From positions 1 to 24,021 of IMG/VR virus record IMGVR_UViG_3300008267_000092: a stretch of 24,021 nt of DNA. One strand, written 5' to 3'. The notes under the pieces were generated by a model, which was not told the origin of the DNA, made no database searches, and worked only from the letters and a program-made list of their open reading frames with translations. Source of the stretch: a virus. The position numbers were made by a program, and so were the translations under genes. Positions 3,853 through 24,021 of this stretch are shown here, piece after piece; positions within the stretch are counted from its first letter, which is position 1, and the number at the start of each line of letters is the position of its first letter.

Positions 3853-3891
3853 AAACCTCTTAGCTCAAATATGTAGTTGAGAGGTTTTTTT
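3853..3891 (+). terminator. Intrinsic terminator after the exonuclease gene
   Basis: AAACCTCT (3853-3860) pairs perfectly with AGAGGTTT (3880-3887). Five more inner pairs, two of them G-T wobbles (TAGCT 3861-3865 with AGTTG 3875-3879), extend the stem around a 9-base loop. A T run at 3885-3891 follows. It begins 5 bases after the stop codon and ends 11 bases before the next gene, for which no separate promoter is visible, so downstream expression probably depends on read-through. Confidence 0.8.
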
Positions 3892-5096: not shown

Positions 5097-5267
5097 ATGA
5101 CAGGAATATATAAAATAACAAGTCCAACAAATAAAATTTATAACTGTGCAAAAGAGGCATTGATAGATTTTAATATTACGTATAGTACACTAATTAGATA
5201 TTTAAAAAATAAATTACCAAATAAAACAACATTAATATATTATAATCATGACGAATTCAAATTATAA
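5097..5267 (+). CDS. 56-residue mini-gene with GIY-like start and NUMOD-like helix-turn-helix
   Basis: The ATG lies 2 bases after the preceding stop, and the last 20 bases overlap the next gene, which argues for genuine translation. The N terminus (TGIYKITSPTNKIY) resembles the first strands of GIY-YIG nucleases. The rest (CAKEALIDFNITYSTLIRYLKNK, then TTLIYYN) resembles the small helix-turn-helix domains (NUMOD/IENR type) attached to homing endonucleases and also found alone as tiny phage proteins. The catalytic core of a GIY-YIG enzyme (the YIG strand, the conserved Arg and the Glu) is missing, so nuclease activity is unlikely. It could be a remnant of a homing endonuclease or a small stand-alone DNA-binding protein. 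Confidence 0.6.
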   Translation: MTGIYKITSPTNKIYNCAKEALIDFNITYSTLIRYLKNKLPNKTTLIYYNHDEFKL

Positions 5268-6003
5268 ATCATTAGGTACTGTGCTTTGGAGAGTAATGAA
5301 ACATTCACTTTGCCAAGAACTCACATATGAGGAAGCTGCAGAGTATGCTTTAGAATTTATAAAGCTATTAGGTGCACCTGTTATATATTTAGATAATGTG
5401 AAGATGTTAGAATTAAGTTGTCATAAAACAGCATTACCATGTGACCTATTATATTTAAATGGTGTTAGGTATATGGACACTGACCTTGAAGGTGCTATCC
5501 ACGAACCTATTGCAATGAGGGAGGCTACAAATGTTTATCATTTAGATCCTGCAGAATTTGCAAATGAAACTAATACTGATTTCAATTTAAGAGGTAATCA
5601 TAGACGTAATGAGTTTACATATCAAATTCAAAAAGGTATATTATTTGCATCTGTACCTGAAGGTTCTGTTGAAATTTCATATAAAGGAATTGCTGTAGAT
5701 GAAGATGGTTATCCTTTAATACCTGATAATGAAAAGGTCATGTTAGGTTTAGAATATTATATTCTTAGTAGATATTTAGAACCATTGTGGATGATGGGTA
5801 AAATTACAGATAAAGCTTTTGAATATATACAACAAAAGAGATATTTCTATACACCTTCCGCATTCACATCGTTACAAATGCCGAGTTTGGATAAAATGGA
5901 AACTATGATGAATAGTTTAAATAGATTAATAATCAATACTACAGCTCATCAAAACTTCTTTAAAAAGATGGGTGAGAAGGAAAGGTTGAAAAAATTTCGT
6001 TAA
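5248..6003 (+). CDS. crAss-like tail/neck ring-type structural protein (second)
   Basis: This 251-residue protein has a pattern I associate with another conserved Crassvirales ring/tail protein. It has an N-terminal helix (LGTVLWRVMKHSL) followed by LTYEEAAEYALEFIKLLGAP, an ALPCDLLYLNGVR segment, strand-rich sequence with EISYKGIAVDEDGYPLIPDN around residues 142-161, and a C-terminal helical part ending in LQMPSLDKMETMMNSLNRLI. The run 'AVDEDGYPLIPDN' is especially characteristic. It probably joins the other ring protein and the muzzle protein in the short tail. The ATG lies inside the preceding mini-gene's 3' end, and the next gene starts 17 bases after the stop. The specific ring position is not resolved. 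Confidence 0.75.
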   Translation: MTNSNYKSLGTVLWRVMKHSLCQELTYEEAAEYALEFIKLLGAPVIYLDNVKMLELSCHKTALPCDLLYLNGVRYMDTDLEGAIHEPIAMREATNVYHLDPAEFANETNTDFNLRGNHRRNEFTYQIQKGILFASVPEGSVEISYKGIAVDEDGYPLIPDNEKVMLGLEYYILSRYLEPLWMMGKITDKAFEYIQQKRYFYTPSAFTSLQMPSLDKMETMMNSLNRLIINTTAHQNFFKKMGEKERLKKFR

Positions 6004-6020
6004 TATATAAACAATAAATA

Positions 6021-9000
6021 ATGAATAAAATCGTTAGACAATCCTATAGTGGGATGGCTCAAGATATTTCGAAATCAAAATTTTCAAATCAATTTTATTT
6101 TGAAGGTAAAAATATTAGAATTGTTACCACAGACACTCAGAGTACAGGTTCGATAACTAATGAAAAAGGAAACTCTTTAATACTAAAAGTACCTAAACCT
6201 GTTATAAATTATACTACTAAAATTATAACTTACGGTTCTAAATCGTTATCTTATACTAATGATGAGATTAATTATAATTCTCAAAGTGGAGATCAAGTGA
6301 TTATAGGTCAAGGTACAACAAGAGATTATGTAATACTTTTTACAACAGATAATAATGGTTTTGATTGTGTATGGAGTGTTAAATATGAAGATTATGAATT
6401 AAAACTTTTGTATTTAAGAAATTTAAATTTTTCAACATCTAATCCAATACAATGTCTTAATAATTTTGAAAACTCAAATATTGATAAAATATATTGGGTT
6501 AATGGTGTTAACCAGATTCAATTTTTAAATATCAAACATTCTATTGATAACCAAGATTTAGAGGAATTAATAGATTTACCTGTAAATGTAATCGACATGG
6601 TTGGTAAATATAGTCTTAGTGCACCTAAGATTACCTCTATTCTTTCAGGAGGTACACATACGTCAGGTATGATTCAATATGCATACAATCTTTATAGATT
6701 AAATTCTGCACAAACTAAATTAAGTCCTTTGAGTGAGTTAATACCTCTGGATAAAGGTATCTTAGGAGGTGGTAATTTAAATGAAAATGTAGGTTCTATA
6801 CCTGTCATCAATATAAATAATATTGACACTAATTACACAAATATTCGAGTATATTCTATAAAATATACCTCTTATAATGAAACACCTAAAGTATCATTAA
6901 TAGAAGATAGAAAGATACCTTCGAAGGGTTCTATTGAAATACTAGATGATAATACTACAATTACAAGTTTGTCGTTAGAGGAATTTTTATTTTTAGGTTC
7001 AGATATAATCATACCTAAACACATTACTAGTAAATTTAACAGGTTATTTATAGCCAACTATGATGAGCTTAATTTTGATGTGAAGTTAGATATGAGAGCC
7101 TATTCATTTCCTCAGTTATCAACATCTGTAAATGTTTATAATGATATCGAGTTAGATGACACCACAGGAGATATTGTACCATCTGAACCAGTATTACAGA
7201 ATACTAGAAATATAACATCTACTTTTACAGATTCAATTGATGATACTTTTGATTCTATAAATTTAAATTACGATGTAAATAGATATTTATATAATTCGTC
7301 AATACAAGGTGGTGAGGGTAAATATTTGAAATATGAATTATTGCAGACAACGGACTATGCTGAAGACAGACGTTATTTTAAAGATGATGAAATATATCGT
7401 TTAGGTATTGAATTTTTTAATGTCTACGGTCAAGTTAGTTTACCTAAGTGGGTTAGTGATTTTAAAGCACCATCTGGTAATCTTAAAGGTCTTCTTAATA
7501 TTTTAAAAATTGAATTAAAATCTGAGTTTTTTACATGGTTAAATATTAGTTCTAATTTTGAAGCTGAATATTCGAAACCTGTAGGGTATAGATTGTTAAT
7601 TGCAGAAAGAACACTTTCAGATAGAACTATTATTGCAAATGGGGCATTAGGTTCTATGATGATTAATGATAAAAGTACAAGAGATGTACCGTTGGATTAT
7701 CGTTCAAATCCTACAGAATATCAATATGTTAAAAATAAAACAGATGAACTTGTGAAATTACCTAATTTCTTATTGAGAAATTGTAATGAAACGTCATTTT
7801 ATGGTAATACACAACCATTACAAAAAGCCTCACATTTAGCAGATATGAATAGAGCTCGTGAAAACTCAAACACAGAGGTTTGTAGAGCTTATTATGGTGA
7901 CGATGATACTTCAGGTAGGTTTTATCAATTTAATCCAATGTTACAGTTGTATTCACCTGAAATATTATTTAAAGAAAGTATTTCATTAAATAGTGGGTTA
8001 GAATTAAAAATAAAAGGTGCATTTAAAAATACTTATAATGCCGTATGGGCTAGAAAATATGAAGCTAATGGTTCGGGAAATATTGCTGATGAAGTTAAAG
8101 CATTTGAAGGTATTATTCCTGCTTATGCTAAAAAAGTAACTCAAATATTAGGTAATCCTAACGCACCTTTAGATTATGGTATTGTATGTCATCCTGGAGG
8201 TAGTGCCCCAGACCGTGTGACACATTCTAAATTTTATAGAGGATATGGTGTTGTGGATATTACAGATGCTTATAATAGTGCAAAATTTATTGAAATTTAT
8301 CAACCTTTTGTGGGTACCACATTACCAGATACTAAAGATTATGTAAATAAGTACGGTCAAGGTTTACAGGTTACAATAAATTCAACAGGTTATCGTAAAG
8401 CGTATATATCATATACTGTAACACCTGATGTTTTAAATTTATTAACACCTTACACAATATCTGTAACTTCTGATAATGAAGGAAATAATGTGTTAATCAC
8501 ACACAATGTTATTTCAGGTAGTTATACGATTGATGTACCTGTTAGAGAATCTCCACTTACAACAACCCCTAATATTGAAAAAACATTTGAAACTTATTTA
8601 AAAATAAAAACACCTGGTGATGTACCATTTAAAGGTACTATGGATTGTTTAGTTAAAATTGCAGATTCAGGTCCTACAGATATTAAAATTGAAGTCTTAT
8701 CTACAGCTAACCTATTTTCAATTAATAATCCTGAATATATTTCAACTAATGCTTTCTCATCTGCAGATTATACTAAATCTTATAAAATTTACGGAACTCC
8801 TGAATTAACTGAAAAAGGTCAATCGTTTACCATCTATAATAAAGATAGTAATTACAGATATTCAAATTCATTTACAGGAATATATACTGACGGAGATAGT
8901 TCTTGGGATAAAACTGGTCTATATGGTCGTAGAATTATAAATTCTAATTCAGATAACAATAGATGTATTACTTTTGTAACAGGACCTAAAAATAGTAGTA

Positions 9001-10634
9001 CACCTAATGATAGTCTTGTAAGACATTATGATAGAAACAGTTTAGAAGATTTATTCACAATGGCAGGAGGTGATGTAGGAGGTGAGGATAATTTATTAAT
9101 TGCTGAACTGGTTAAGACCAAAGCTGAGATTTATCTAGGAGGTATTTATGGTGGTAATAGTTATGAAGATAAACAACGTACAAACTATCTTGAAATAGGT
9201 GAATATAAAACTTTATCACCATCTGAAACATCATACACTTTATTATCTCCTGGTGATACATTTGTTAATAATTTTAGATTTTTAAGAGTTGTTAGAAAAG
9301 ATACTAATATTTTAGCTGAAGGGGTGTTACAACAGGAAGAGATTGTTGAGTTTTTAACTGAAACATCTATAAATTTAAAAAATCGAAGTGATACGAGTGA
9401 CAGTGTTTGGGATTCTAAATTTTTCAATTTAAATAGTGATTATCATACTTACAACAGAGTTTATTCACAACTTTCTGATTTAATTAAACGTAGAAATCTT
9501 AATTATAATTTTAAAAAGATTTCAAGTTATGACACAAACATCATATCATCTAAATTAAAATCCGCAGGTGAATTAATTGATAATTGGACAGATATTCTTC
9601 AAAATGAAGTTATGACCCTTAATGGTAAATTTGGATCAATAAACTCATTAATATCATTTCAGGATGAGGTTTATGCTATACAAGATAAAGCTTTTGCATT
9701 TATATCTATTAGTCCTAGAATACAAGTTTCAGGTTCTGATGGGTTAGCTGTACAATTAGGTACAGGTGCTATTTTAGATAGATATAAATATATTTCCACT
9801 GAGAATGGTACGCGTAATAGATTTGGTGTTATTGTTACAGAGAAAGGTGTTTATTTTTATGATGCATTAAGTAAAGCTATTACAATGTTTAAAGGTCAAA
9901 TTGAAGGTTTATCAAATACCAAATCAATGCACTCATTCTTTATAAATAATCTTGTAGAGGGTGATTTAGTAATGGATAACCCTGTGTTAAAAAAAGGGGT
10001 ATCTTGTGGTTATGATTATGTCAACAATGATGTATTTTTAACATTTCATCAAAATAAAATTGAAAATGGTTTATCTACATATTCACCTTTTACAATAGCA
10101 TTTAATGAAAATTCAAATACATTTGTATCATTTTATGATTATACACCATCATTTTACATTAGTCGAGGTAACTACTTTGTTACAACCGACCCTAATAACA
10201 CATCCATTTATCGTCAAGGTGTAGGATTATATAATACTTTTTATAATGTTAAATATCCTTCATATGTCACATTAAATGTGAACCCTGAACCAAATCTTGA
10301 TTGTGTGTTTGATAATATCAATTTTAAGTCTGAAACATACTCGTATGACACAAATACAGGCTTATACACGATAGATAATCCAGACAAGACCCTTACAGGT
10401 ATTAGAGCTTATACAGATCATCTAGACTCAAATGTAGGAACTTCTGTAACACCATTGGTTGTTGGTAGAAATAATAATATCCGTCGTAAATTTAGAGATT
10501 GGAATGCGTTAATACCTCGTTCAGGTAGAGAACGTATAAGAGGACCTTGGGTAAAATTGAAATTAGTATTTGACCAACAAGGTGATTATAAATTTATATT
10601 ACACGATATTGATATTTCTTATACTACGTCATAA
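6021..10634 (+). CDS. crAss-like tail muzzle / tail stabilization protein
   Basis: This is a 1537-residue protein, the length class of the large tail protein annotated as 'stabilization protein' in crAss-like genomes and named the muzzle in the PhicrAss001 virion structure. Its N terminus (KIVRQSYSGMAQDISKSKF, then FYFEGKNIRI and GSITNEKGN at ~45-53) and C terminus (RRKFRDWNALIPRSGRERIRGPWVKLKL from ~1488, then ILHDIDISYT) match the pattern I recall for that family. The body is rich in beta strands, Asn, Ser, Thr and Tyr, with few Cys, fitting a large extracellular tail-tip assembly analogous to T7 gp12/P22 gp10-type tail tube proteins. The stretch FISISPRIQV...AVQLGTGAILDRYKYIS...RNRFGVIVTEKGVYFYDALSKAI looks like one blade of a propeller-like fold. 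It ends the ring-protein transcription unit; promoter P2 follows. Confidence 0.82.
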   Translation: MNKIVRQSYSGMAQDISKSKFSNQFYFEGKNIRIVTTDTQSTGSITNEKGNSLILKVPKPVINYTTKIITYGSKSLSYTNDEINYNSQSGDQVIIGQGTTRDYVILFTTDNNGFDCVWSVKYEDYELKLLYLRNLNFSTSNPIQCLNNFENSNIDKIYWVNGVNQIQFLNIKHSIDNQDLEELIDLPVNVIDMVGKYSLSAPKITSILSGGTHTSGMIQYAYNLYRLNSAQTKLSPLSELIPLDKGILGGGNLNENVGSIPVININNIDTNYTNIRVYSIKYTSYNETPKVSLIEDRKIPSKGSIEILDDNTTITSLSLEEFLFLGSDIIIPKHITSKFNRLFIANYDELNFDVKLDMRAYSFPQLSTSVNVYNDIELDDTTGDIVPSEPVLQNTRNITSTFTDSIDDTFDSINLNYDVNRYLYNSSIQGGEGKYLKYELLQTTDYAEDRRYFKDDEIYRLGIEFFNVYGQVSLPKWVSDFKAPSGNLKGLLNILKIELKSEFFTWLNISSNFEAEYSKPVGYRLLIAERTLSDRTIIANGALGSMMINDKSTRDVPLDYRSNPTEYQYVKNKTDELVKLPNFLLRNCNETSFYGNTQPLQKASHLADMNRARENSNTEVCRAYYGDDDTSGRFYQFNPMLQLYSPEILFKESISLNSGLELKIKGAFKNTYNAVWARKYEANGSGNIADEVKAFEGIIPAYAKKVTQILGNPNAPLDYGIVCHPGGSAPDRVTHSKFYRGYGVVDITDAYNSAKFIEIYQPFVGTTLPDTKDYVNKYGQGLQVTINSTGYRKAYISYTVTPDVLNLLTPYTISVTSDNEGNNVLITHNVISGSYTIDVPVRESPLTTTPNIEKTFETYLKIKTPGDVPFKGTMDCLVKIADSGPTDIKIEVLSTANLFSINNPEYISTNAFSSADYTKSYKIYGTPELTEKGQSFTIYNKDSNYRYSNSFTGIYTDGDSSWDKTGLYGRRIINSNSDNNRCITFVTGPKNSSTPNDSLVRHYDRNSLEDLFTMAGGDVGGEDNLLIAELVKTKAEIYLGGIYGGNSYEDKQRTNYLEIGEYKTLSPSETSYTLLSPGDTFVNNFRFLRVVRKDTNILAEGVLQQEEIVEFLTETSINLKNRSDTSDSVWDSKFFNLNSDYHTYNRVYSQLSDLIKRRNLNYNFKKISSYDTNIISSKLKSAGELIDNWTDILQNEVMTLNGKFGSINSLISFQDEVYAIQDKAFAFISISPRIQVSGSDGLAVQLGTGAILDRYKYISTENGTRNRFGVIVTEKGVYFYDALSKAITMFKGQIEGLSNTKSMHSFFINNLVEGDLVMDNPVLKKGVSCGYDYVNNDVFLTFHQNKIENGLSTYSPFTIAFNENSNTFVSFYDYTPSFYISRGNYFVTTDPNNTSIYRQGVGLYNTFYNVKYPSYVTLNVNPEPNLDCVFDNINFKSETYSYDTNTGLYTIDNPDKTLTGIRAYTDHLDSNVGTSVTPLVVGRNNNIRRKFRDWNALIPRSGRERIRGPWVKLKLVFDQQGDYKFILHDIDISYTTS

Positions 10635-10662: not shown

Positions 10663-10694
10663 TTTGGAATTATCATAAATATTTTGTATATTTG
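10663..10694 (+). promoter_or_regulatory. Bacteroidota-type promoter P2 upstream of the cargo operon
   Basis: TTTG at 10663-10666 and TATATTTG at 10687-10694 have the same 20-base spacing as P1 and P3. It lies in the 138-base gap between the muzzle gene and the cargo genes. The predicted start near 10700 gives a ~70-base leader containing a terminator-like hairpin before the ATG at 10773. Sixteen of the first 18 bases of the element match P1. Confidence 0.72.
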
Positions 10695-10726
10695 TGTAAC
10701 AAATTTATTTAAGACAATACAATTAG

Positions 10727-10752
10727 AGGTGGGAGTAATCTCACCTTTTTTT
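10727..10752 (+). terminator. Terminator-like hairpin in the leader of the cargo operon
   Basis: AGGTGGGA (10727-10734) pairs with TCTCACCT (10739-10746) through 8 pairs, one of them G-T, around the 4-base loop GTAA. A T run at 10746-10752 follows. This is a compact, typical intrinsic terminator. It lies downstream of promoter P2, so P2 transcripts would meet it after ~50 bases. It may end read-through from the muzzle gene, attenuate P2, or end a small leader RNA. Confidence 0.75.
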
Positions 10753-10772
10753 ATAATATAAAATTTTAAAAT

Positions 10773-13700
10773 ATGCCAGATCCTAAAAAGAAAAATGGTA
10801 AAGTTGCTACTGATCCTAGAGATATTCCAGCAACTAGACGAGATAGTCTTAATTTACAAAAACTTGCAATAGAAAGAAGTAATTTTCTTAAAAATGCAGG
10901 TTATGTTAAAGAACCTGACGTTAAAAAAGGACCATTTCCGTATGCACATCAAGATATGTATAGGAATTATCAGCAAATGCAAAAAAAACAACGTGATAGT
11001 ATTACTACAGAAGTTATTAGATTAAACCGTAAAGGTCAGCCTTATAGAAGTACTGAGGTTTATGATCCTAAATATTATAGACAAGAAAATGTTAATGGTA
11101 ATCCTAATAAGTATAAAAGTCAAGAAGTAGGTGATATTGGAGTTTTAAATCCTGCTGTTAAATACGGTGATTTTGATTATAGAATTGATCCTACAAAATA
11201 TGAAAGATGGGTTAATCCCAATACAGGTGATGGTGTAAATAATTATATTTATGATTTTGGAAGTAAATATAATCCCAAACCAGTAAAAATTAATTCAGGT
11301 AAAGGTACTGTAAATGTTAACAAGAATCCTGGACATAATAATCAAAAACAAGTACCTGTTAAAAATGTAACTGCTAATAGTCCATTAGATTATATGAATA
11401 GTTCAACTATAAAATACGCTGATGGTGGTCAAATACATAATGATTTAGATGGTAAATATAATAATTATTTAAACAATAATATGAAACAATACGCACAAGG
11501 TGGAAAACTTACTCGTTTTGACGAAGGTGGTACACACGAACAAAATCCTTTAGGGGGAATTCCTCAAGGTCAAGATGGTCAAGGTAATATGAATACAGTC
11601 GAACAAGGGGAAACCAAGAAAGGTAACTTTGTATATAGTGATAGAATTGCTTTAGATAAAAATCTTATTAAACAATTCAACCTTCCAGGTTACGTAGCGA
11701 ATAAGAGTGTATCAGAAGCATCTAAAGCAATAGATAATCAGTTTAAAGACCGTCAAGATAAATATGCACAAGAAACTAAAAAGACTTTATTAGATAGGTT
11801 ATCTCAAGCACAAGAGCATCTTAAAGCTCAAGAGCAGGCTCAACAACAACAGATTAATCAATCTATGCAGGCTAATTCACAGCAAGTTCCCGATATGATG
11901 GAAGGTCAAATTCCTGAAGGTATGGAAGAATATATGGAACAATCTCAATCACAAAATCCTCAAGAGGAAATGATGGGAGGTCAGCAACCGATGGCACGTG
12001 GAGGGTATATGAATAGATATGATGATGGAGGTTATATTTCAGATTTAAAACCTGCAGGTTTGACAGATTTGAGTCCTTATGGTGCACAAATATCAACTAA
12101 TACATCGGGATTAAATAATATACAACCTACTGAAAATAACACCCAAACTCAAAGTAATACAGATTATTCTAAATTAGCACCTATTGCTACAGGTGTAGGT
12201 AATATGGTTTATAATCAAGATGCACAAAAGAGTGCAACATTAGGTACTATAAATGCTGTAGGTAGTACTGCAGGAGGTACTGTTGGTAAATATGTATCTG
12301 GAGCTACAGGTTTATATGATATGGGTCAAGAAGCTTTTGGTAAATCAGGTGTTGACACATCAGGTAAGCAATCTGTAAGTGGTGCCAGTGCTGGTAGATC
12401 TGCAGGTTCAGGTGCATTAAAAGGTATGGGTACAGGTGCTACAATTGGAAGTATTATACCAGGTGTAGGTACTGTAATTGGTGCAGGAGTTGGGGCAATT
12501 GTAGGTGGAGTTACAGGTTTAATAGGTGGTAAAAAAGATGAAAAAGCTCAAGCTGTAAATAATAAAAAATACTCACTTAATATTAATAAGCAATTTGATG
12601 ATCCTAATTGGGCAGCATACGGGGGTACATTAGATGTAGGTGTTAAACCGACAACAGGAAATAGTACAATAAGACCTTCAGTTAAAATGTTAAAATATGG
12701 TGGTGATATAGATCCCCCTGTAAAATTTTTAAAACCACCTGCAGGATACAATACAAATCCTATTCAAAATTTTCATGATATTACAGGTGTGTCACCTGAT
12801 ACACCTGGTTATGGTCAAGAATTTGGTAAAAAAAGTAATAAATTATTGTTTGATTATAATGTCAATATAAAAGATCCTGATACATTAGCTTTGCAGAAAA
12901 AAGGTAAAACTACATATACAAATACCAAGGAAGACATTATGAATAAAACGTGGAATGACGTACAACAGAAAAAATACGGTATTACAGCAGAAGGTTATAG
13001 AGATATGCATCCAGAAAACGATGTACCTACATTGGATCAAAAAATACCAGATTTTGTACCTGAAACAGGTGTGTTAGCTAGTATGGAAAAAAATTATCAA
13101 GATGTTTTAGCAAAAAGAACTACTGAAGCTAATAAAAAATCAATTGTAGATAAGGCTGGTGACTTTGTTAAAAACCATTACGGAGAAGCTATGAGGTATG
13201 CACCTATAGCAATGAATGCTTATCAACTATCTCAATTAAAAAAACCTCAAGGTGTACAATATCATACATCAGGTGATAAATATAAACCTCAGTATGTTGA
13301 TGAAACACAACTTCAAAATATTGCAGCTCAAAATCAACGTAATCAGATTAATGCAGTTAGTGAAAGTGGTGGTTCAGAGGGAGCAAATCGTGCAGCTATT
13401 CTAGGTTCAGGTGTAAATTTCAATAGAGGTTTGTCTGAGGCTTATTTAAATATGAAAGATAGAAATATGAGTATGGATGATCGTGCTCAACAATTTGATT
13501 CAGCTATAAATTCTCAAAATATTGCAATTAGAAATAGAGCTATTGATGAAATGAGAGCTGATAAAGGTAATTACGATACTCAAAAATCTAAGCTTTTAGG
13601 TGCAATAGGTACAGATATTGGTTCTGTAGGTAAAGAGGAAGTCAATAAAGACCAAATTGCGGCAATGTTGGGTTATACTTGGAGAGGTAATTACATGGTT

Positions 13701-13853
13701 GATGAAAAAGGTCAACGTGTTACTGCTGAAAAAATGGCTAAAGATAAAGCAGCTTTAGAAGCTTCTAATGAAAAACCTGCATATAATTCTAAAACAGGTG
13801 AAAAGATAACATATGGTTATGGTGGATTTTTAAAAACATATAATAAAAGATAA
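10773..13853 (+). CDS. Internal virion (cargo) protein with glycine zipper and GG-motif repeats
   Basis: This 1026-residue, low-complexity, Gln/Asn/Gly-rich protein contains GGTHEQNPLGGIPQG at residues 252-266 followed by a VEQGE...FVYSDRI segment ending at ~292. I recall that combination in structural proteins of Bacteroidota phages. Short aromatic-x-Gly-Gly motifs recur along it (YADGG, YAQGG, FDEGG, YDDGG, AYGG, KYGG, YGYGG). Residues ~549-586 form a glycine zipper (GTGATIGSIIPGVGTVIGAG and on to GLIGG), the kind of helix that inserts and packs in membranes, as expected of a protein ejected to form a channel. Residues ~335-375 are Gln/Ala-rich and may coil. It is first in a three-gene operon and lies after the muzzle gene, where crAss-like phages encode capsid cargo. 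The ejection role is inference. Confidence 0.7.
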   Translation: MPDPKKKNGKVATDPRDIPATRRDSLNLQKLAIERSNFLKNAGYVKEPDVKKGPFPYAHQDMYRNYQQMQKKQRDSITTEVIRLNRKGQPYRSTEVYDPKYYRQENVNGNPNKYKSQEVGDIGVLNPAVKYGDFDYRIDPTKYERWVNPNTGDGVNNYIYDFGSKYNPKPVKINSGKGTVNVNKNPGHNNQKQVPVKNVTANSPLDYMNSSTIKYADGGQIHNDLDGKYNNYLNNNMKQYAQGGKLTRFDEGGTHEQNPLGGIPQGQDGQGNMNTVEQGETKKGNFVYSDRIALDKNLIKQFNLPGYVANKSVSEASKAIDNQFKDRQDKYAQETKKTLLDRLSQAQEHLKAQEQAQQQQINQSMQANSQQVPDMMEGQIPEGMEEYMEQSQSQNPQEEMMGGQQPMARGGYMNRYDDGGYISDLKPAGLTDLSPYGAQISTNTSGLNNIQPTENNTQTQSNTDYSKLAPIATGVGNMVYNQDAQKSATLGTINAVGSTAGGTVGKYVSGATGLYDMGQEAFGKSGVDTSGKQSVSGASAGRSAGSGALKGMGTGATIGSIIPGVGTVIGAGVGAIVGGVTGLIGGKKDEKAQAVNNKKYSLNINKQFDDPNWAAYGGTLDVGVKPTTGNSTIRPSVKMLKYGGDIDPPVKFLKPPAGYNTNPIQNFHDITGVSPDTPGYGQEFGKKSNKLLFDYNVNIKDPDTLALQKKGKTTYTNTKEDIMNKTWNDVQQKKYGITAEGYRDMHPENDVPTLDQKIPDFVPETGVLASMEKNYQDVLAKRTTEANKKSIVDKAGDFVKNHYGEAMRYAPIAMNAYQLSQLKKPQGVQYHTSGDKYKPQYVDETQLQNIAAQNQRNQINAVSESGGSEGANRAAILGSGVNFNRGLSEAYLNMKDRNMSMDDRAQQFDSAINSQNIAIRNRAIDEMRADKGNYDTQKSKLLGAIGTDIGSVGKEEVNKDQIAAMLGYTWRGNYMVDEKGQRVTAEKMAKDKAALEASNEKPAYNSKTGEKITYGYGGFLKTYNKR

Positions 13854-13856
13854 TAG

Positions 13857-15698
13857 ATGCCTATCAATAGATACTCAGATTTAAGTGTTTCAGCATATAA
13901 TCCTATGTCAATGGAAGAATTGGCAATGGTTCCAATGATGAAACGTAAACAACATGATGAATTAGATAAACAATTAGCAGAAGCCGTTGTTAAAGTTGAC
14001 CCTTTAAAATATCATGAAGATGAAGCGTTAAGATTAAAGAATGAAATGGAAGGTAAAGTTGCATTCCAATCGGAGCAACTTGCCTCCCAAGGTATTACAC
14101 CTGATGCAAAATCTTCATTTTATAAGTTAAATAAAGAATATAGAGATTTAGTTGCACCTACAGGTCAAGTAGGTAAAATAAACCGCGCTAAAGAAATTTA
14201 TGATAAGGAACATGCTGCATTTATTAAGAACGCAATGGAAACATCTAAAATAGGTGGTGACCAAGCAGAACTTAGGTGGAATGAACATGTTGCTAAAAAT
14301 TATACAGGATATGAAGATCCTGAACAAAAACGCATTAAATACATTGATCCTTTAGGTGCTGTCGCATATCAAGATCAAGATAAAGATTTAGCGTTAGCTC
14401 ATAGTATATTAGGTAGTTATTCTAGACAAGTGAGTAACGCGGGTTACCATATAGGTGAAGATAAAGCTACAGGTTTATTAGGTGTTATAAATAGTAAAGG
14501 TGAAACTGTACATTCAGATAACTTTAAACAGGTAAATGAAGCATTAAAAGGATATAGTGCAAAATGGCTTAATCCTACTGGAGAAGGTTATAAATGGTCA
14601 AAATTTGCAGGTCAAGATATTGAAAATAATCGTCAACGTATTAAACATGAATTCAATTCAATGTATAATCTAAAAACAGGTTATTCAAGTGAACAATCCT
14701 TTAATCCTTTAGCTGGTCAGGGTGGTGGTGACGGTGAAAACCAAACTGAGACACCTACACAGTTACAAGAATCTGCAAATGTAGAAAACCCAATAACAAA
14801 ACATTTAGATGAATTAAATAATACAAGTGTTAAAGATATACTTAGTCAATTTCCTGCAGCGTGGTCAAATTTACAAACTTTAATAAAAAATAAAAAAGTA
14901 AGTCCTGACGAATTAAAAAAACAAGATTATGCACTACAGCAGATGGTTAAAGATAAACTATCACCCGCAGCATTAGACGCATACACAACAACATATAATA
15001 TAAAAGTTGCACAAGGGTTGATTCCAAAAGGAGAGCCTATGTTTGGATCTAAAGCTCAAAAGGTAATAAAAAATGATTGGTCACAACAAAAAGATTTTGC
15101 ATGGTCAAATAATGTGATATTACCTGACTCTAAAGAAAATGATATTTTAGCTTCTCCACAGTTAGTTAATGCTACAACACCTGCCGCAAGAAATGCGTTT
15201 GCACAAAGAAGATTTGACCTTGCACGTAAAAATAAACAAACATTATTATATGACGAAGAAGGTAATAAAATAGATTTAGATGATGTTAATAGAAAATCAA
15301 TTGAATTAGTAGGTCATTATAATCCTGCGAACATGCTTAAAACTTTTGGTGGAAATCCAGATAATATTGTGTCACCACATGTAGTATCTTATGAAGATGC
15401 TGATGGAGTTTCACATACAGCATTAATGCCTCGTGATGCAAATGAAAAAATAACTAATAATTATAAAGCTGCACAAATAATAAATAAAACAATTAGAAAA
15501 AGTGTTGTACATGGAAATGGATTTGTAAGTTTTACAAGTAAAGATTTTCCAATTTTAAAATCTAAAGGTATCGATAATCTTAGAGTAAAGTTTGATTCAA
15601 AAAATAAAACATATACCGTGGAAACTGCTGGTAAAAAATTCCAACCTATGACACAAGAGGAATATAGTGATTTTTGGTATAATAATTTAAATAATTAA
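13857..15698 (+). CDS. Internal virion (cargo) protein, helical N terminus
   Basis: This 613-residue protein is separated from the upstream gene only by TAA TAG, with its ATG in the same frame. The N terminus (YNPMSMEELAMVPMMKRKQHDELDKQLAEA) and the following helical region up to ~110 (EQLASQGITPDAKSSFYKLNKEYRDL, AKEIYDKEHAAFIKN) match a pattern I recall from conserved proteins beside cargo genes in gut Bacteroidota phages. A Gly/Gln-rich linker lies near residues 287-300. The second half is mixed, with basic segments. No membrane helix, enzyme motif or signal peptide is evident. The likely role is an internal virion protein working with its neighbours; the function is otherwise unknown. Confidence 0.68.
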   Translation: MPINRYSDLSVSAYNPMSMEELAMVPMMKRKQHDELDKQLAEAVVKVDPLKYHEDEALRLKNEMEGKVAFQSEQLASQGITPDAKSSFYKLNKEYRDLVAPTGQVGKINRAKEIYDKEHAAFIKNAMETSKIGGDQAELRWNEHVAKNYTGYEDPEQKRIKYIDPLGAVAYQDQDKDLALAHSILGSYSRQVSNAGYHIGEDKATGLLGVINSKGETVHSDNFKQVNEALKGYSAKWLNPTGEGYKWSKFAGQDIENNRQRIKHEFNSMYNLKTGYSSEQSFNPLAGQGGGDGENQTETPTQLQESANVENPITKHLDELNNTSVKDILSQFPAAWSNLQTLIKNKKVSPDELKKQDYALQQMVKDKLSPAALDAYTTTYNIKVAQGLIPKGEPMFGSKAQKVIKNDWSQQKDFAWSNNVILPDSKENDILASPQLVNATTPAARNAFAQRRFDLARKNKQTLLYDEEGNKIDLDDVNRKSIELVGHYNPANMLKTFGGNPDNIVSPHVVSYEDADGVSHTALMPRDANEKITNNYKAAQIINKTIRKSVVHGNGFVSFTSKDFPILKSKGIDNLRVKFDSKNKTYTVETAGKKFQPMTQEEYSDFWYNNLNN

Positions 15699-15699
15699 T

Positions 15700-18600
15700 A
15701 TGGAAGAAGATGAAGATGGATTATTAAATAGTAGTCCTAAAAATAATACTAGTCCAGGATTAATAGATCATCGTCAAGTAAAAAAAGGATTAGTTTTTGA
15801 TATTAGTAAAAAACACAACATCTCAAAAACTACACAGGCTGCAGAATCTTTTCACGGATATAATACAGGTTTAGGTCAATCAAAATATGATAAAGGTTTA
15901 ACTTGGGGTACAAATATTGATGAAGATGATGTTGCAGGTTCTCTTAATGAATACCGTGCACAACAACAATCAGGTATTGCACAAGTAGGATTAGGATTAT
16001 TGCGTGCAACATCTAAAGGATTACAGGAGGTTGCAAAACTTCCTGGAGTGTTAGGTGGTATGACTGTCGCAACTTTTGAAAATGTTGGAGATTTAATGTC
16101 GGGTAAAGATGAGCATTCATTTATTGATACTGCGTTTAACAACACGTGGATTAAAACAATTGACGAAGTTGGTGAAAAAATAAACACTGATGTTTTACCT
16201 GTATATACTGCAAAAGCTGTTAAAGAAGGTAATTTGTGGGCAAACATATCTTCAACTGCGTTTTGGGCTACAGATGGTGCAGATGGTCTAGGTTTTATTT
16301 TAGGAATGATGGTTCCTGGTGCAATATTTGAATACGCAAGATTAGGTGGTAAATTAATTAGTGCAGCATCTCAAAGTCAACGATTAGCTAAAATTACATC
16401 AATGTCGGGTAAGGCTGAACAAGCTGTAAGTGCTTTAAAAACAATGGGTATCACAGGTAAAAACATTGATAGTGGTTTAGCTGTAATGGGTAATACTTTA
16501 TTTGAAGCAGGTGCTGAAGCTAAAAGTGTTGGTGACGACTTAGATAGAAAAAAACCAGAGTTTATGACTCGAAGAGTTGCTGAAATTAAAAATAACCTTG
16601 TTAAATCAAATTATGCAGGTGAACCTGAATTTATTCAAGGACCAATGCAAATGGTTAAAAATCCTGATGGTACACAATCAATGTCATCTTCAGGATTAAT
16701 TCCTAATCCTAATTATAAAAATTTTGATCAAATTGCATTAGAGCAAGCTGAAAGTGAATATAAGGAACAACGTGCATTAGCAATGAGAAATACTTTTGTT
16801 AGCAATGTAGGTATTCTTTTAGGTCCTAATGCCATGATGCATAAAGCAATATGGGGTAAAGCTGCTCAAAGATTTGAAAAAACTGCAGAACAAGGTATAA
16901 AAGGTGTTGCTAAAAGAGTTGGTAAATCTGCTGAAAGAGTTGGTAAAGCATTTGCTGTTGAAGGTGGATGGGAAGAAGGTTCTCAAACAAGTGTTGAAAA
17001 AATGTATGTCAACAAAGCTATGAAAGGTTCTCTTGGTAAAGATGGTTTTGAAGGTTTTGTAGATGATTTTAATGTAGGTGATTTTGCAAAAGAATACTCT
17101 AATACGTTGGCTACAACTGAAGGGCAGAAAGCTATCTTTTTAGGGGGAGCTCTTGGAGGACCTATGATGTCGTATCAAGGTAGAAAAGAAGATGTTGTAA
17201 ATAGAACACGTACTAATGAAGTATTAGATGGTATTGATAAACAGATAACTCATTTTAATAATATATTTGATAATGATGTTTATCAAAAAAATGAAGATGG
17301 TAGTTTTAAATATAAAAAAGATGAGCAAGGTAACGATACAACTGAAAGATTATTAGATAGTAAAGCTGTTCGTAAAATTGCTCAAGATTTAAATTATACT
17401 GAACAACGATCTGCAATATTTGATCTTGCTGTAAAAACAGGTAATACTGAAGTTGTTGATAAATTAAAACAGGACGCAATTTTTAATTTAATTTTACCAT
17501 CTATACATAACGGTGAAATGGGTCTTCAGGCTTTAGAGCAACAACTAAATGAAAATTCTAAGTTTCAGGAATTAACTGAACGAGATGCTAAAGCTGACAA
17601 TAAGGATAAGACTAAAGAATTTGTTAAACAAACCCTTGAAACAGCTAAATATCTTCAAAAACAAAATGAGAAGTTTGGTGATTTTAGTAGAGATGTAATT
17701 GATTTAACTCATCCTACAGCCACACAAGAACAAAAAGATGATTTTCTTAATAAATTAAACACATCTTACTTAAATAGTAAACATGAATTAAGACAAGATG
17801 AAATAAAATTAAAAGAATTAGAAGCTAAACGTGAAAATATTTTTGAAGAATTAGGTGTAGATCCATTATATAATCCTGAAGCAGAGTTTCCAACTGCAAA
17901 AATGAAAAATGGTATTGTTTCAGATGAAGATTTAATGCAACGTGCTGAACGAACAAAAGCAGCACTTAATTCAAATGAATTATTAAAGAAAACAGAAGCT
18001 GAGTATAATGAATTAAAACAGAAAATAGATAATCATAAAAAAGATATTTCTGAAATTTGGCAAGGTAAAGATAAAATAGCAGGTGCATTTAGTAAATTTG
18101 TAGATAAAGATAATAAAGATACTGAAAATACTTCTGATGAAAAAGTTGCACAAGCTGATGCATTAATAGCAAATGTCACAAATGCTCAATCTAATAAAGA
18201 ATTAGATCAGTTATTACTTCCTCCACATATACCTCAAAAAACAGAGGCTGATTATAACAGGGAAACAGAGTTAAATCTTATTCAAAATGTATCTAAAAGT
18301 ATTAATGAAGATCAATCTATTGGTAATTTAAAATTAAATTTAGATAAATTAAAATCATTAAACATCAGTTCTTTAAAAATAGATGAGATTGCTAAAAGGA
18401 TTGAAGATAGAATTAAGCAGTTACAGGATGAACAAGAATCATTTAAAGATTATCTTTTAGATGCTATTAATTCTTTTGACGAACAATCTCAAAAAGTTAA
18501 TGATTTTATATCTGATTTAAATACTGAAATTGATTCATTATTAAAAACCAAAGATGTTTTAGTTAAAAGTTTAAATGAGCAAGATAAATCTCCTAGAGGT

Positions 18601-21417
18601 AGAAATGCTAAACTTATTAAACAGTTAATTAAAGAAGCTGAGAATGAATTAGCAAAGGTTGAAAAAGAACTAGAGTATTTAGAAGGTTTAAAAGAGGAGG
18701 CTCAAAAAGAACTTACCAAAATTGAAAAAGATTTAAGTTATATTTTTAATAGATATGATCAAATTGAAAAATCTGATTTTGCATCTGTACAAGATATTAT
18801 AGATTATTTAAATGATAATAAAGAATTATTTAAAGATCACAGATTTGATTTTGAAAGACTTTTAGTTAACAAACATTATACTGAACAAAATATTGAAGGA
18901 TTATCAACAGCTATTAATGCTTTAGAAAATTACGCAGATGTTTTAAAAAGAACAATACGTTCATTATTAGACAGTGATGAAAATCATTCAGAAGATCTTT
19001 ATTATTTACAAGAACAATTAAATGATGTTCAGGAAAATTTAACTACTGCTAAAAAAGATTTAAAATCTGAACAAGCTAAATTAAAAAGATTAAATCGAGC
19101 TATACTTGATAAACAAGCAATTAAATCTGTAAATTTAGAAGAGGATTTTTGGAAAGATTTACAGACGTTTAAAAAGGATAAAATTAATCCTTTAGTAAAT
19201 AACCCTATTATTGCTGAAAAAATTCAAGCTAAACGCGATGAACTTACACAACAAGAACAGGAACTTGCTGATCAGATAGCTGCTGAACAAACAGATCTGC
19301 AAGAAGATCAAATTATTAATGATCCTACACAAGTTACTGAAGTTGTAGCACCAACTGTTACACTCGATGAGAATGGTAATTTTCAATCTGAATCATTGCC
19401 TACACAAGTAGATGAGGATGAAGACAATGAGGTTGTTCATGCTGAGAATATGTCTGAGGAAAAAATTAATGAATCATTAAAAGGTGAAGTTGCAGGTGCT
19501 AAAGTTATTAGTACTAACAGAGAAACTGGTGAGCCGTTAGGTAATTTATTACAACAATTTGTTGACTATGAAAGAACCCCTATAGATAAATCTGAACATG
19601 TTATAACTATTGAGTTAGGTGATCTTAATAAAGCAAGTAAAGAAGTTGAAAAGGCGTATAAAAGATTATTAAAAGGTACAGCAACTATAGAAGATGTCGA
19701 ATTGTTAAAAGCGAAACTACCTATTAAAATAGTATCTAGTTATAAAAATGAAAAAGGTGAACAACCTTATTCTTGGATAGAGGATCAGACCGAATTTAAT
19801 CAAAAAAATCCTGACTCTAAAGAAATATTAGATAAACAAACAATGCCTTTAAGAGTACGTATAATTGACGAGGCTGTTAAAAATAATAAAGCTGTTAATA
19901 ATACAGGTTTAGCGGGATTGACCACTAATATAGTTAAACAATATCCTGGGTTACTTACAGTTCAATATACAGATGAAGGTGCTGCTAAAAACAACATATT
20001 TGATTTACAGGTTTTTGATGGTATGTCTGAAGATGAAAAGGTTGTTTATTTTCAAAAAAATAGTGCGTTTGTAAACTGGGAAGGTAATTTAGTAAGTACA
20101 CTAAATCCTAAAAAAGTAATTCAAAGTAATTTTGGTCAAAATCATAAAGGTGAAGTATTTTTAACTATACCACAAAATAATGGTAAACCGTTTTATTTAA
20201 AATTAAACGTAAGTAAGGTTAGTGAAGATAAGGCTGAAGCTATTTATGAAATGGTTAATGCATTAAGTCAGGTATCACAAACAATAAGTGCACCAACTAA
20301 CTTTCAAGCAATGACTGTTGGTAAGTTTTTTGAAACACTTGATGGAATTGACCCTGAATTAAGTAGTCGTCTACAAGATGTACTTAAAAATGAAATTGAA
20401 TTTGTTAAACAGTACAATAAAGGTGATGAGCGAAATGAAAGTTTATCTAGATTTTTAGATCTTCTTATTTATCATAAGAGTGAAAATAAAAAAACTGCAT
20501 TTAATTTAAGTAAAGACGGTAATTTAACACTTGGTTCATTAGCTGAACATTTAATAAGTGATTCAGATTTTAAACATCAATTAACAATTACTAAAGATGA
20601 ATTAGGTACTGAAGAAGCTAAAAGTGTTATAATGAATTACATTCAGTATAAAAGACACAACATTCTTATTACTAAAGATAATGTTAATGAATTTGTTTTT
20701 AACAATAAAGACTATATTAAATATCTTTTAAATTCAGAATATCCTATATTAACTACAAATGCAATAACAGGTAAAGATGAAAAAGGTAATCAAATACCAA
20801 CATTTCAAGGTTATAGTAATATTTATTTAAATCAGGATGTTAAAAATTCTAAAAGTACTACAAATATTTTAAGTGGTAGAGGTACAGTTGCACCAATAGT
20901 TAAAAATAATTTAGATGTTAAAAAAGCTGATATAGAAAAAAGAAGACAAGAAGAATTAAATAGAAAAGATGATTGGTTTTTAAGTTTATCTGAAAGTGCT
21001 CAAAAAATAACTTTAAATAAAATTAATGCTAGATTTGATGCAGAACTAGCTGCTTTAGAAGGTAACAATCAACAAGTTTCAGCTACACCAATTGAAATCG
21101 AATCTGCGAATGAAGATGGTACATTGCCATCTGTGAAAGCTAGATTGGCTGCAGCATTAGGAAATAAAACACAACCCACTAAAAAAGAAGATGTAAAAAT
21201 GGATGTAACAAATATTCAGTCAATGTATGACAACGCTAACGAAGATAGTAAAATGAACATAGTATTGGCGCTTGCTAAAACTTTAAATCAAACCGTAGAA
21301 TCTGATAATATTGAAACTGTTGAAGATTTAAATAATATATTTAAAAATTTAATTACTGTGGCACAAAATGAAACAAACAAATCTATTGATCAAATTACAA
21401 AAGAATGTGGATTTTAA
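15700..21417 (+). CDS. Giant internal virion (cargo) protein with membrane-like and coiled-coil regions
   Basis: This 1905-residue protein starts 1 base after the upstream stop. The acidic N terminus leads to a segment with amphipathic/hydrophobic stretches: VGLGLLRATSKGLQEVAKLPGV (~97-118), WATDGADGLGFILGMMVPGA (~188-207) and AIFLGGALGGPMM (~477-489). These could engage a membrane. Residues ~660-740 and ~930-1160 are charged heptad-rich coiled coils (KEAENELAKVEKELEYLEGL and similar). An acidic linker follows (~1235-1250). A folded domain near 1290-1525 includes EVFLTIPQNNGKPFYLKLNV. The pattern matches the giant cargo proteins that crAss-like phages package in the head. No catalytic motif was recognised. 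A role in forming or traversing the ejection conduit is inferred from place, size and composition. Confidence 0.72.
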   Translation: MEEDEDGLLNSSPKNNTSPGLIDHRQVKKGLVFDISKKHNISKTTQAAESFHGYNTGLGQSKYDKGLTWGTNIDEDDVAGSLNEYRAQQQSGIAQVGLGLLRATSKGLQEVAKLPGVLGGMTVATFENVGDLMSGKDEHSFIDTAFNNTWIKTIDEVGEKINTDVLPVYTAKAVKEGNLWANISSTAFWATDGADGLGFILGMMVPGAIFEYARLGGKLISAASQSQRLAKITSMSGKAEQAVSALKTMGITGKNIDSGLAVMGNTLFEAGAEAKSVGDDLDRKKPEFMTRRVAEIKNNLVKSNYAGEPEFIQGPMQMVKNPDGTQSMSSSGLIPNPNYKNFDQIALEQAESEYKEQRALAMRNTFVSNVGILLGPNAMMHKAIWGKAAQRFEKTAEQGIKGVAKRVGKSAERVGKAFAVEGGWEEGSQTSVEKMYVNKAMKGSLGKDGFEGFVDDFNVGDFAKEYSNTLATTEGQKAIFLGGALGGPMMSYQGRKEDVVNRTRTNEVLDGIDKQITHFNNIFDNDVYQKNEDGSFKYKKDEQGNDTTERLLDSKAVRKIAQDLNYTEQRSAIFDLAVKTGNTEVVDKLKQDAIFNLILPSIHNGEMGLQALEQQLNENSKFQELTERDAKADNKDKTKEFVKQTLETAKYLQKQNEKFGDFSRDVIDLTHPTATQEQKDDFLNKLNTSYLNSKHELRQDEIKLKELEAKRENIFEELGVDPLYNPEAEFPTAKMKNGIVSDEDLMQRAERTKAALNSNELLKKTEAEYNELKQKIDNHKKDISEIWQGKDKIAGAFSKFVDKDNKDTENTSDEKVAQADALIANVTNAQSNKELDQLLLPPHIPQKTEADYNRETELNLIQNVSKSINEDQSIGNLKLNLDKLKSLNISSLKIDEIAKRIEDRIKQLQDEQESFKDYLLDAINSFDEQSQKVNDFISDLNTEIDSLLKTKDVLVKSLNEQDKSPRGRNAKLIKQLIKEAENELAKVEKELEYLEGLKEEAQKELTKIEKDLSYIFNRYDQIEKSDFASVQDIIDYLNDNKELFKDHRFDFERLLVNKHYTEQNIEGLSTAINALENYADVLKRTIRSLLDSDENHSEDLYYLQEQLNDVQENLTTAKKDLKSEQAKLKRLNRAILDKQAIKSVNLEEDFWKDLQTFKKDKINPLVNNPIIAEKIQAKRDELTQQEQELADQIAAEQTDLQEDQIINDPTQVTEVVAPTVTLDENGNFQSESLPTQVDEDEDNEVVHAENMSEEKINESLKGEVAGAKVISTNRETGEPLGNLLQQFVDYERTPIDKSEHVITIELGDLNKASKEVEKAYKRLLKGTATIEDVELLKAKLPIKIVSSYKNEKGEQPYSWIEDQTEFNQKNPDSKEILDKQTMPLRVRIIDEAVKNNKAVNNTGLAGLTTNIVKQYPGLLTVQYTDEGAAKNNIFDLQVFDGMSEDEKVVYFQKNSAFVNWEGNLVSTLNPKKVIQSNFGQNHKGEVFLTIPQNNGKPFYLKLNVSKVSEDKAEAIYEMVNALSQVSQTISAPTNFQAMTVGKFFETLDGIDPELSSRLQDVLKNEIEFVKQYNKGDERNESLSRFLDLLIYHKSENKKTAFNLSKDGNLTLGSLAEHLISDSDFKHQLTITKDELGTEEAKSVIMNYIQYKRHNILITKDNVNEFVFNNKDYIKYLLNSEYPILTTNAITGKDEKGNQIPTFQGYSNIYLNQDVKNSKSTTNILSGRGTVAPIVKNNLDVKKADIEKRRQEELNRKDDWFLSLSESAQKITLNKINARFDAELAALEGNNQQVSATPIEIESANEDGTLPSVKARLAAALGNKTQPTKKEDVKMDVTNIQSMYDNANEDSKMNIVLALAKTLNQTVESDNIETVEDLNNIFKNLITVAQNETNKSIDQITKECGF

Positions 21418-21449
21418 TTTGGATATATTAAATTAATTTCGTATATTTG
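21418..21449 (+). promoter_or_regulatory. Bacteroidota-type promoter P3 upstream of the last giant gene
   Basis: TTTG at 21418-21421 begins directly after the stop codon of the 1905-residue gene, and TATATTTG occupies 21442-21449, again 20 bases apart. The start codon is only 20 bases past the -7 box, so the leader would be about 15 bases and A-rich. No terminator is seen between this promoter and its gene, unlike P2. Confidence 0.72.
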
Positions 21450-21469: not shown

Positions 21470-24021
21470 ATGGCGTGTAAAAAAATAACAAAGACAAATG
21501 GTTCAGAATCTGAATTAATAACTACTTTAGAAAGCATTTATGAAAATGAATTTAAAGCTGAAGCAGGTTATTCTTATTTTGAATCTGATGTGTTTATATC
21601 AGAATTTGGAGATTATATTAAAGGTTATGAGGAAGGAGATCCATCATTTAGTGGTCGTGTAGACAATAATGGTGAACCTAAATTACATTATAACGAAGCA
21701 GCTAAAAAATATTATTTTATTAATGAAAAGAAAGAAGAAGTTTTCTACCCTCTTATAAAGAGAGGGTTGAGAGCAACTTTTAACTATAAACAGATTGATA
21801 AAATTGTTTCAAGATTAGCATTAAACTACTTTAAAAAATCTAATTTAAATTTCAATAATATTAAGTTTGAAGAAGGTGAAAAATTACCTAATTTAAAAGA
21901 CGATATTAGATTAGAATTAGTTACCAAAATTAATGAGTTAAAAAATGGTAATTTTAAAGGGAAATTTTCCGCAAAATTACTTGAAAGTTCATTAGAGAAT
22001 TTAGATGAATATGTTGAACGAGTAGATGCTTTTTATAAACAAATAGGCATTAAGCGTGTAGATAATAATGATCAGTCATCTCTTGAGTCTGAAGCTGAAG
22101 AAGGTAAAGATCCTTCGTTTACTAAACAATCTTTTGAAAAAGATATAAAGGATTCATTAACTACAAATATTAAATTAAAATTAGCATTATTAGAAGATAC
22201 TAATGATTTAGATCCTATATGGGGAGAACCTACTTTTATTGGTTATAATGAAGCTCACGGTACGTTATTAAATAATATTACAAATCAAGTAGCTGTTGAA
22301 GGTGAAGATTTGTTTGAGTTACAACGCGATGCTATCACCTTATTAGCTACTAAAAAACCGTATTTAAAGCAGTTATTATCCTACATGAAGGAGTTTACTG
22401 AAGAGGATAAAAATCAGTTCGCACAGGCTTTTAATTTACACGGTAATAATTATTTAGTATCCGAGATTCAAACAAAAACTAAAGTGACAGACCCTGTAAC
22501 AGGGGAAGCATCTGTTAAAAAAGGATTTACTCATGTAGTTAAACAAATTTCAGAATCAGGCTCAAAAGCAACACTTGTAACATCTGAGTGGGGAAATAAT
22601 TTTAAAAATTCTTTTTTAGATGATAAGAATAAATTAACAACTGAATCTAAAGAAATTCTTAGTAAAATTATTGAGGATTTAGACACATTAAAAACTAATA
22701 TTAAAAATGACTTAACACCTTCAGAGTTTGAAAAATTTACAAACGAGTACATTTCTTTAACTCGGAAGTTAGGTGTTGAAATGTCTGAAAATGGAATAAT
22801 TAACTTTTTAGATAACGGTGGTGAAATAGCGTTTGATATAAGTGCTCAAATTAATAAACTGTCAACATCTGTTACACAAACAGCTATTGCAGTTAAAAAA
22901 GCAATTACAACTTTTAAAAAAGTAAATGAAAGTTATAAAAATCCATTTGATACAGAAAGTGTATTTAAAAAGTTAGCAAAAGCTGAAGCTTTTTATTTAT
23001 CTGAAGGTTCTGAATCAAGTATATATTCAAGAGGTAAGAATCAATGGTTATTTTCATATCCATCTTATTTATCAACTCGTATATTACAATGGAAGAAGAA
23101 TCCTGAATTATTGAGAAACTGGTATAATCAATCAGCATATAATAAAGGTTCTGAAATAATGAAGTATTTGTTAGCGTTAGATCTTGACCAAAATAGAACG
23201 TATGAGGATAATTATGTTGAAGATTTAATTAAAGAAAGATTAGAAAATTTTAAATTAGGTATATTTAACTCATTTCAAGAAACAGGTAATGATAAAAATC
23301 AACAACAGTCTGCAACAGATTTATCTTTTAAAGATTACTTTACAGATAACGTAAATAAAGTATTACTTAACAGTTATGTTAGAACTACCACTCCTGCAGA
23401 TAAAGGTTCAGATTTACAGATTAAGACTGGATTTTTTATTGAATCTGCTAATTTTCAAGATGGTATTTTAAATCTTACTGCTAAAACAAAAGAGGTATTT
23501 TTTAACTACTTTAACTCTGAAGTTAACAGAATGAAAGAGGCTTCAAATGAAGTTGATACTTTAAAATTTACACCTGAAAAATTAATTATTAATTATCATT
23601 ATAAAGAAGGTTCTACAATTGATGCTAAAGATGGGAATGCATTTCAATCACAATATTTTCCAGAATTATCATTTAATAGTAAATCTAAAAATGAACTAGT
23701 ATTGAGTATTAAAGATCAACTCTATAATTTAGATGGATCTATAAAACATACTGCAGATATAAGTGCCAACCCTGAATTAAAACAATTAATTATTTCACAT
23801 CTTAATAATGTATTGTCTGAAGGTATTAATCAGACGTTAAATACCTTCCTAGAACAAGAGATTTTAGAAATTAATGGTGAAGGATTACTTTCAAATAAAG
23901 CTATAGATCAAGTAACATTTACAGAGTATTCAAAAAAGAATTTATTAAATTCTGAAAACGCAGCATTAGAAATTGTATCGGATTACTATATTAATAGTCT
24001 TATACAAAATGTTGAATATTC
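21470..24021 (+). CDS. Giant virion-type protein, N-terminal 850 residues (3' truncated by window edge)
   Basis: The frame runs without a stop from ATG 21470 to the window end. The start is chosen because it is the first ATG after promoter P3 and has an A-rich leader. The N terminus begins MACKKITKTNGSES. Residues ~35-120 (VFISEFGDYIKGYEEGD, GEPKLHYNEAAKKYYFINEK, FNYKQIDKIVSRLALNYFK) follow a pattern I recall from giant proteins of crAss-like and other gut Bacteroidota phages. The rest is mostly helical and charged, with no membrane helix or nuclease motif. In crAss-like phages, the genes after the cargo block include the giant proteins containing the virion RNA polymerase (phi14:2 gp66 type). 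The polymerase DFDID-type metal motif is not in this part, so the identity beyond 'giant virion protein' is unproven. Confidence 0.7.
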   Translation, partial: MACKKITKTNGSESELITTLESIYENEFKAEAGYSYFESDVFISEFGDYIKGYEEGDPSFSGRVDNNGEPKLHYNEAAKKYYFINEKKEEVFYPLIKRGLRATFNYKQIDKIVSRLALNYFKKSNLNFNNIKFEEGEKLPNLKDDIRLELVTKINELKNGNFKGKFSAKLLESSLENLDEYVERVDAFYKQIGIKRVDNNDQSSLESEAEEGKDPSFTKQSFEKDIKDSLTTNIKLKLALLEDTNDLDPIWGEPTFIGYNEAHGTLLNNITNQVAVEGEDLFELQRDAITLLATKKPYLKQLLSYMKEFTEEDKNQFAQAFNLHGNNYLVSEIQTKTKVTDPVTGEASVKKGFTHVVKQISESGSKATLVTSEWGNNFKNSFLDDKNKLTTESKEILSKIIEDLDTLKTNIKNDLTPSEFEKFTNEYISLTRKLGVEMSENGIINFLDNGGEIAFDISAQINKLSTSVTQTAIAVKKAITTFKKVNESYKNPFDTESVFKKLAKAEAFYLSEGSESSIYSRGKNQWLFSYPSYLSTRILQWKKNPELLRNWYNQSAYNKGSEIMKYLLALDLDQNRTYEDNYVEDLIKERLENFKLGIFNSFQETGNDKNQQQSATDLSFKDYFTDNVNKVLLNSYVRTTTPADKGSDLQIKTGFFIESANFQDGILNLTAKTKEVFFNYFNSEVNRMKEASNEVDTLKFTPEKLIINYHYKEGSTIDAKDGNAFQSQYFPELSFNSKSKNELVLSIKDQLYNLDGSIKHTADISANPELKQLIISHLNNVLSEGINQTLNTFLEQEILEINGEGLLSNKAIDQVTFTEYSKKNLLNSENAALEIVSDYYINSLIQNVEY

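Follow-up and report, generated by a model that had tools for sequence, protein, structure and literature searches.

A promoter at the junction between a virion structural gene and the cargo genes of a crAss-like phage is followed, before the first cargo gene, by a putative intrinsic terminator. What does a terminator do between a promoter and the genes that this promoter precedes?

Genomic setting

The DNA analyzed here (the window) comprises bases 1 to 24021 of a viral record of 94,131 bases, which protein matches identify as a crAss-like phage (~94 kb). The promoter (P2) and the hairpin lie between the stop codon at 10634 and the start codon at 10773 (Table 1). Gene order suggests a cargo role for the two genes that follow the first cargo gene, and the unit from 10773 to 21417 amounts to 10.6 kb, the length given by an earlier, sequence-only reading of this locus. 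The next promoter, before the 2908-amino-acid open reading frame (ORF), has no hairpin downstream. According to published accounts, transcription of late crAss genes is probably the work of the host polymerase (PMC10136315). Elsewhere in the record, the DNA polymerase is encoded in two fragments around a homing endonuclease gene (genome positions 61315 to 64215; L012:1315-4215).

Table 1. Features of the window around the cargo junction and upstream of it
Feature	Position	Strand	Basis or remark
Internal terminator after 310-aa exonuclease gene	3853..3887	+	5 nt past the gene; next start codon 15 nt further on
crAss ring protein gene	5248-6003		Protein match
crAss001 gp44 homologue (annotated as stabilization protein/virion structural protein)	6021..10634	+	phrog_28748, E=1.4e-262; tblastn to phi14:2 and crAss001
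P2, sigma-ABfr-type (Bacteroidota) promoter, TTTG-N20-TATATTTG	10663..10694	+	Motif match
Unpaired leader segment	10699..10724	+	Sequence comparison of near pairs
Predicted intrinsic-terminator hairpin, AGAGGTGGGA-GTAA-TCTCACCTTT + T7	10725..10752	+	Folding, motif, shuffles, covariation
First cargo gene, crAss_CARG1 domain (PF25725)	10773..13853	+	E=4e-22
Remaining two cargo-unit genes, both large (613 and 1905 aa)	13857..21417	+	ORFs
Next promoter, P2 type	21418..21449	+	20 nt 5' of 2908-aa ORF at 21470

Promoter, leader, and hairpin

P2 was correctly placed by the sequence-only reading and matches TTTG-N19-21-TANNTTTG exactly: TTTG (10663 to 10666) and TATATTTG (10687 to 10694) are separated by 20 nt, within the 19 to 21 nt between TTTG and TAnnTTTG that characterize sigma-ABfr promoters. 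In Flavobacterium johnsoniae, the G of the -7 box is at -5 (PMC6847099), and application of this rule to P2 predicts a start site at ~10699. No TAnnTTTG box, and hence no second P2-type promoter, occurs between the hairpin and the start codon (10753 to 10772). The divergent region at genome positions 70784 to 70943 carries two P2-type promoters ~150 nt apart, and past the first of these lies G-rich sequence that contains no ORF.

In several relatives (L019, L020, L023, L027, L029, L053, and L064), an inverted repeat, one arm of which is the -7 box, spans the predicted start site of the cargo promoter (e.g., ATCTTTGT..ACAAAGAT). The summed arm length is 114, versus 57 ± 11 in shuffles, and the repeat, which is weak in the window (10687 to 10706), is a possible operator.

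The hairpin, proposed earlier at 10727 to 10752, has a stem of 10 pairs (10725 to 10748) with a GUAA loop, and seven T residues (10746 to 10752) abut the stem as in intrinsic terminators. It begins 30 nt past the -7 box and ~27 nt past the predicted start site, its folding z score is -2.96, and a T-flanked hairpin of equal stability arose in none of 1,000 dinucleotide shuffles of positions 10695 to 10772. On a terminator score calibrated on Escherichia coli, the hairpin (d = 12; relatives, 11 to 32) is predicted to be a terminator of normal strength and not obviously leaky. Its predicted formation is 0.97 in RNA originating at P2 and 0.96 in RNA originating upstream. Terminated P2 RNA is predicted to be ~54 nt long, close to the ~50 bases suggested previously.

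A search for competing folds in the leader found none (pre-terminator folds reach just -0.1 to -3.6 kcal/mol), and no ATG precedes 10773; cis-acting attenuation is therefore unlikely, and both a riboswitch and leader-peptide attenuation were rejected on these grounds. An Rfam search gave no match.

Order of promoter and terminator among relatives

As the window has no DNA-level similarity to named phages, relatives were compared through the upstream protein, with loci found by means of the protein of gene 6021 and two hairpin patterns. The order promoter, hairpin, gene is kept in 12 relatives besides the window (L014, L016, L025, L081, L029, L039, L037, L038, L045, L051, L075, and L093; L028 has the same junction as L016). 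The opposite order, terminator, promoter, gene, is found in about a dozen (L017, L019, L020, L021, L023, L026, L027, L033, L053, L064, and the named phages crAss001 and cr85_1; L024 equals L019, and L030 and L032 were grouped with L027). Some of the latter have a promoter that matches only in part (TTAG or CTAG at -33), and in L022 and L058 an endonuclease gene precedes the terminator-promoter unit. phi14:2 and a few other relatives have no hairpin at the junction. The sequence-only reading, which had looked to related phages for conservation of the order, is thus upheld for 12 relatives but not for those with the reversed order or without a hairpin.

Junctions that carry a hairpin carry a single one, either 5' or 3' of the promoter, and none has both. 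Among 37 promoter-gene pairs identified by strict criteria, only the nine at the cargo junction have a hairpin after the promoter, and none was found at ~15 other promoter-gene pairs. Phages with one order are interspersed in the tree with those of the other, at least four changes being forced for type A, and L019 and L025 are sisters with opposite orders. Such alternation among relatives constitutes a natural experiment. Two further loci (L031, after 11119; L065, after 7107) lack the leader hairpin. They have instead, ~37 nt past the -7 box and within the first part of the coding sequence, a hairpin whose stem shows compensation (CCCCC/GGGGG versus CCTCC/GGAGG).

In two relatives, a gene separates the promoter from the hairpin: in L015, a GIY-YIG endonuclease gene comes between the promoter and the leader, which persists along with the hairpin, the latter with a compensated stem change (G-C to U-A), and in L055 a 98-amino-acid ORF lies between promoter and hairpin. 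A short RNA made directly from the promoter is consequently not a constant property of the arrangement; as far as the sequences indicate, the constant property is the ending of one unit just 5' of the next gene. GIY-YIG-like homing endonuclease genes also occur more widely at the junction of gene 6021 and the cargo genes (L015, L016, L017, L022, L026, L027, L038, L051, L055, and L058), on differing sides of promoter and hairpin.

Conservation and cassette exchange

All promoter-proximal hairpins lie 26 to 30 nt past the -7 box and end in six or seven T residues. They fall into several groups of differing sequence, all of which preserve stem, T run, and spacing, and compensatory changes are seen. 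In the L037 family and L025, 97% of stem cells are paired and both sides have changed in 4 of 11 pairs; on four of five measures, covariation as high was seen in only 0 to 2 of 500 shuffles. Covariation was counted only on this six-sequence alignment (A4), because MAFFT misplaces L016, L029, L039, and L055 when the full set is aligned.

Comparison of four near pairs gives 0 to 2 changes per 22 to 25 nt for the unpaired leader and 0 to 9 changes per 19 to 20 nt for the promoter spacer. The pooled difference (4/97 versus 18/79) is significant by Fisher's test when a gap is placed by hand in L029/L039 (p = 0.0004) but not when this pair is left ungapped (p = 0.41). Leader identity reaches 95% between the window and L014 and 92% between L037 and L045, above nearly all other segments nearby (mean, 57%), and the excess is smaller or absent in other pairs. 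L081 and L025 have exactly the same promoter and leader, although the identity of their upstream proteins is 54%. This exact sharing and the interleaved orders indicate that the cassette moves between phages. Leader conservation may therefore be due in part to cassette exchange, and alignment-wide conservation was rejected as proof of RNA function.

Other terminators without promoters

The internal terminator at 3853 to 3887 is followed by no promoter before the next gene and has a counterpart at the corresponding site in most of the relatives examined. Another, at genome positions 87075 to 87104 after the auxiliary capsid gene, recurs in the same place in several relatives and in crAss001 (L105, 2515 to 2543). 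These promoterless terminators lie 15 to 28 nt 5' of a late gene, and such late genes would have to be read through the hairpins. Their presence elsewhere in the late region favors constitutive partial read-through at the cargo junction as well.

Proposed function of the promoter-proximal terminator

The reading we favor, with about even confidence, is that the terminator lowers cargo transcription by constitutive partial read-through and also closes the upstream unit. Host RNA polymerase would start at P2, make ~54 nt, and partially terminate at the hairpin, which would also be met by transcripts coming from the upstream gene. Cargo mRNA would then be the read-through fraction only, and the hairpin would act as a constitutive step-down valve, like Tphi before genes 11 and 12 of phage T7, and would additionally close off the unit upstream. 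The simplest account is partial read-through without regulation, although about a dozen relatives manage without a hairpin downstream of the promoter and the hairpin's normal E. coli-calibrated score speaks against obvious leakiness. The main rival is regulated processive antitermination, in which a factor from the phage would alter polymerase at P2 or in the leader and let it read through, as with Q proteins or AlpA, thereby timing cargo expression. This is less likely, but the anatomy resembles that of PalpB-tB (PMC9371919), the hairpin is predicted to be strong, the unpaired leader is more conserved than the promoter spacer, and crAss001 RNA polymerase ORFs are expressed at different stages for a reason that is not known (PMC8375218). 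Against it, the spacer is variable, although a poorly conserved site may be present; no conserved -7-like box was seen in the early transcribed region, sister phages have opposite orders, and PHROGs recognized no antiterminator in the 30 other genes scanned, many of which had no match. The earlier proposal that cargo genes are held back until a factor appears thus finds neither an alternative fold, a leader ORF, a conserved spacer element, nor a recognizable antiterminator. A more general version, in which an unrecognized antiterminator acts at P2-proximal and other promoterless terminators to time or dose Crassvirales cargo genes, is a little less probable again.

It is unlikely that the hairpin simply ends the upstream unit, having come to lie 3' of the promoter by chance during cassette exchange and hardly affecting cargo. 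This account fits the interleaved orders and the limit of one terminator to a junction, whether 5' or 3' of the promoter. It does not fit the fixed spacing, the slowly changing leader, or the several independent hairpins at one position, and a working terminator at this position must also act on P2 transcripts. The small-RNA half of the sequence-only reading fared worse than the attenuator half, to which the recurrence of the order in relatives lends weight. That the ~54-nt leader RNA is itself a product acting in trans, like the short IsrK of Gifsy-1 (PMC4825925), agrees with its length, its layout, and the slow change of its unpaired 5' part within groups, but leader sequences vary between groups and the genes inserted in L015 and L055 argue against it, making this very improbable. 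Equally improbable is a 5'-untranslated-region hairpin that stabilizes or processes cargo mRNA: it lies 20 to 25 nt 5' of the start codon and has counterparts before other late genes, yet the six or seven T residues abutting the stem in every case would be needless for stability.

With a terminator at a fixed distance past the cargo promoter and promoterless terminators before other late genes, including one in the cultured crAss001, how much capsid, tail, and cargo protein crAss-like phages make becomes a concrete question of partial read-through or antitermination.

Comparison with known systems

A literature search of partial coverage found no description of the promoter-then-terminator arrangement. 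The gp44-gp45 junction of crAss001 (L070) has the same genes and promoter type as the window, but its terminator lies 5' of the promoter and none lies 3'. In Pseudomonas aeruginosa PalpB-tB with AlpA and at phage Q late promoters, as here, a promoter is followed by a leader intrinsic terminator and then the operon; Q and AlpA use a promoter element and a -10-like pause site (PMC9371919), whereas the window has no conserved spacer element, evident pause element, or recognized antiterminator. Transcripts from the phage promoter of IsrK in Gifsy-1 either stop at a terminator in the leader or continue past it (PMC4825925), as is predicted here, but the window leader has no known trans target and, unlike in IsrK, a gene can intervene between promoter and hairpin. 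In T7, expression of genes 11 and 12 depends wholly on read-through of Tphi (PMC5592923), an intrinsic terminator that lies past the capsid gene, between genes 10 and 11, within the late region. The window terminator likewise has no promoter between it and the next gene, and its downstream virion genes would likewise need read-through. Tphi, however, is met by T7 polymerase after a long gene, whereas the window terminator would be met by host polymerase ~27 nt past the predicted start site.
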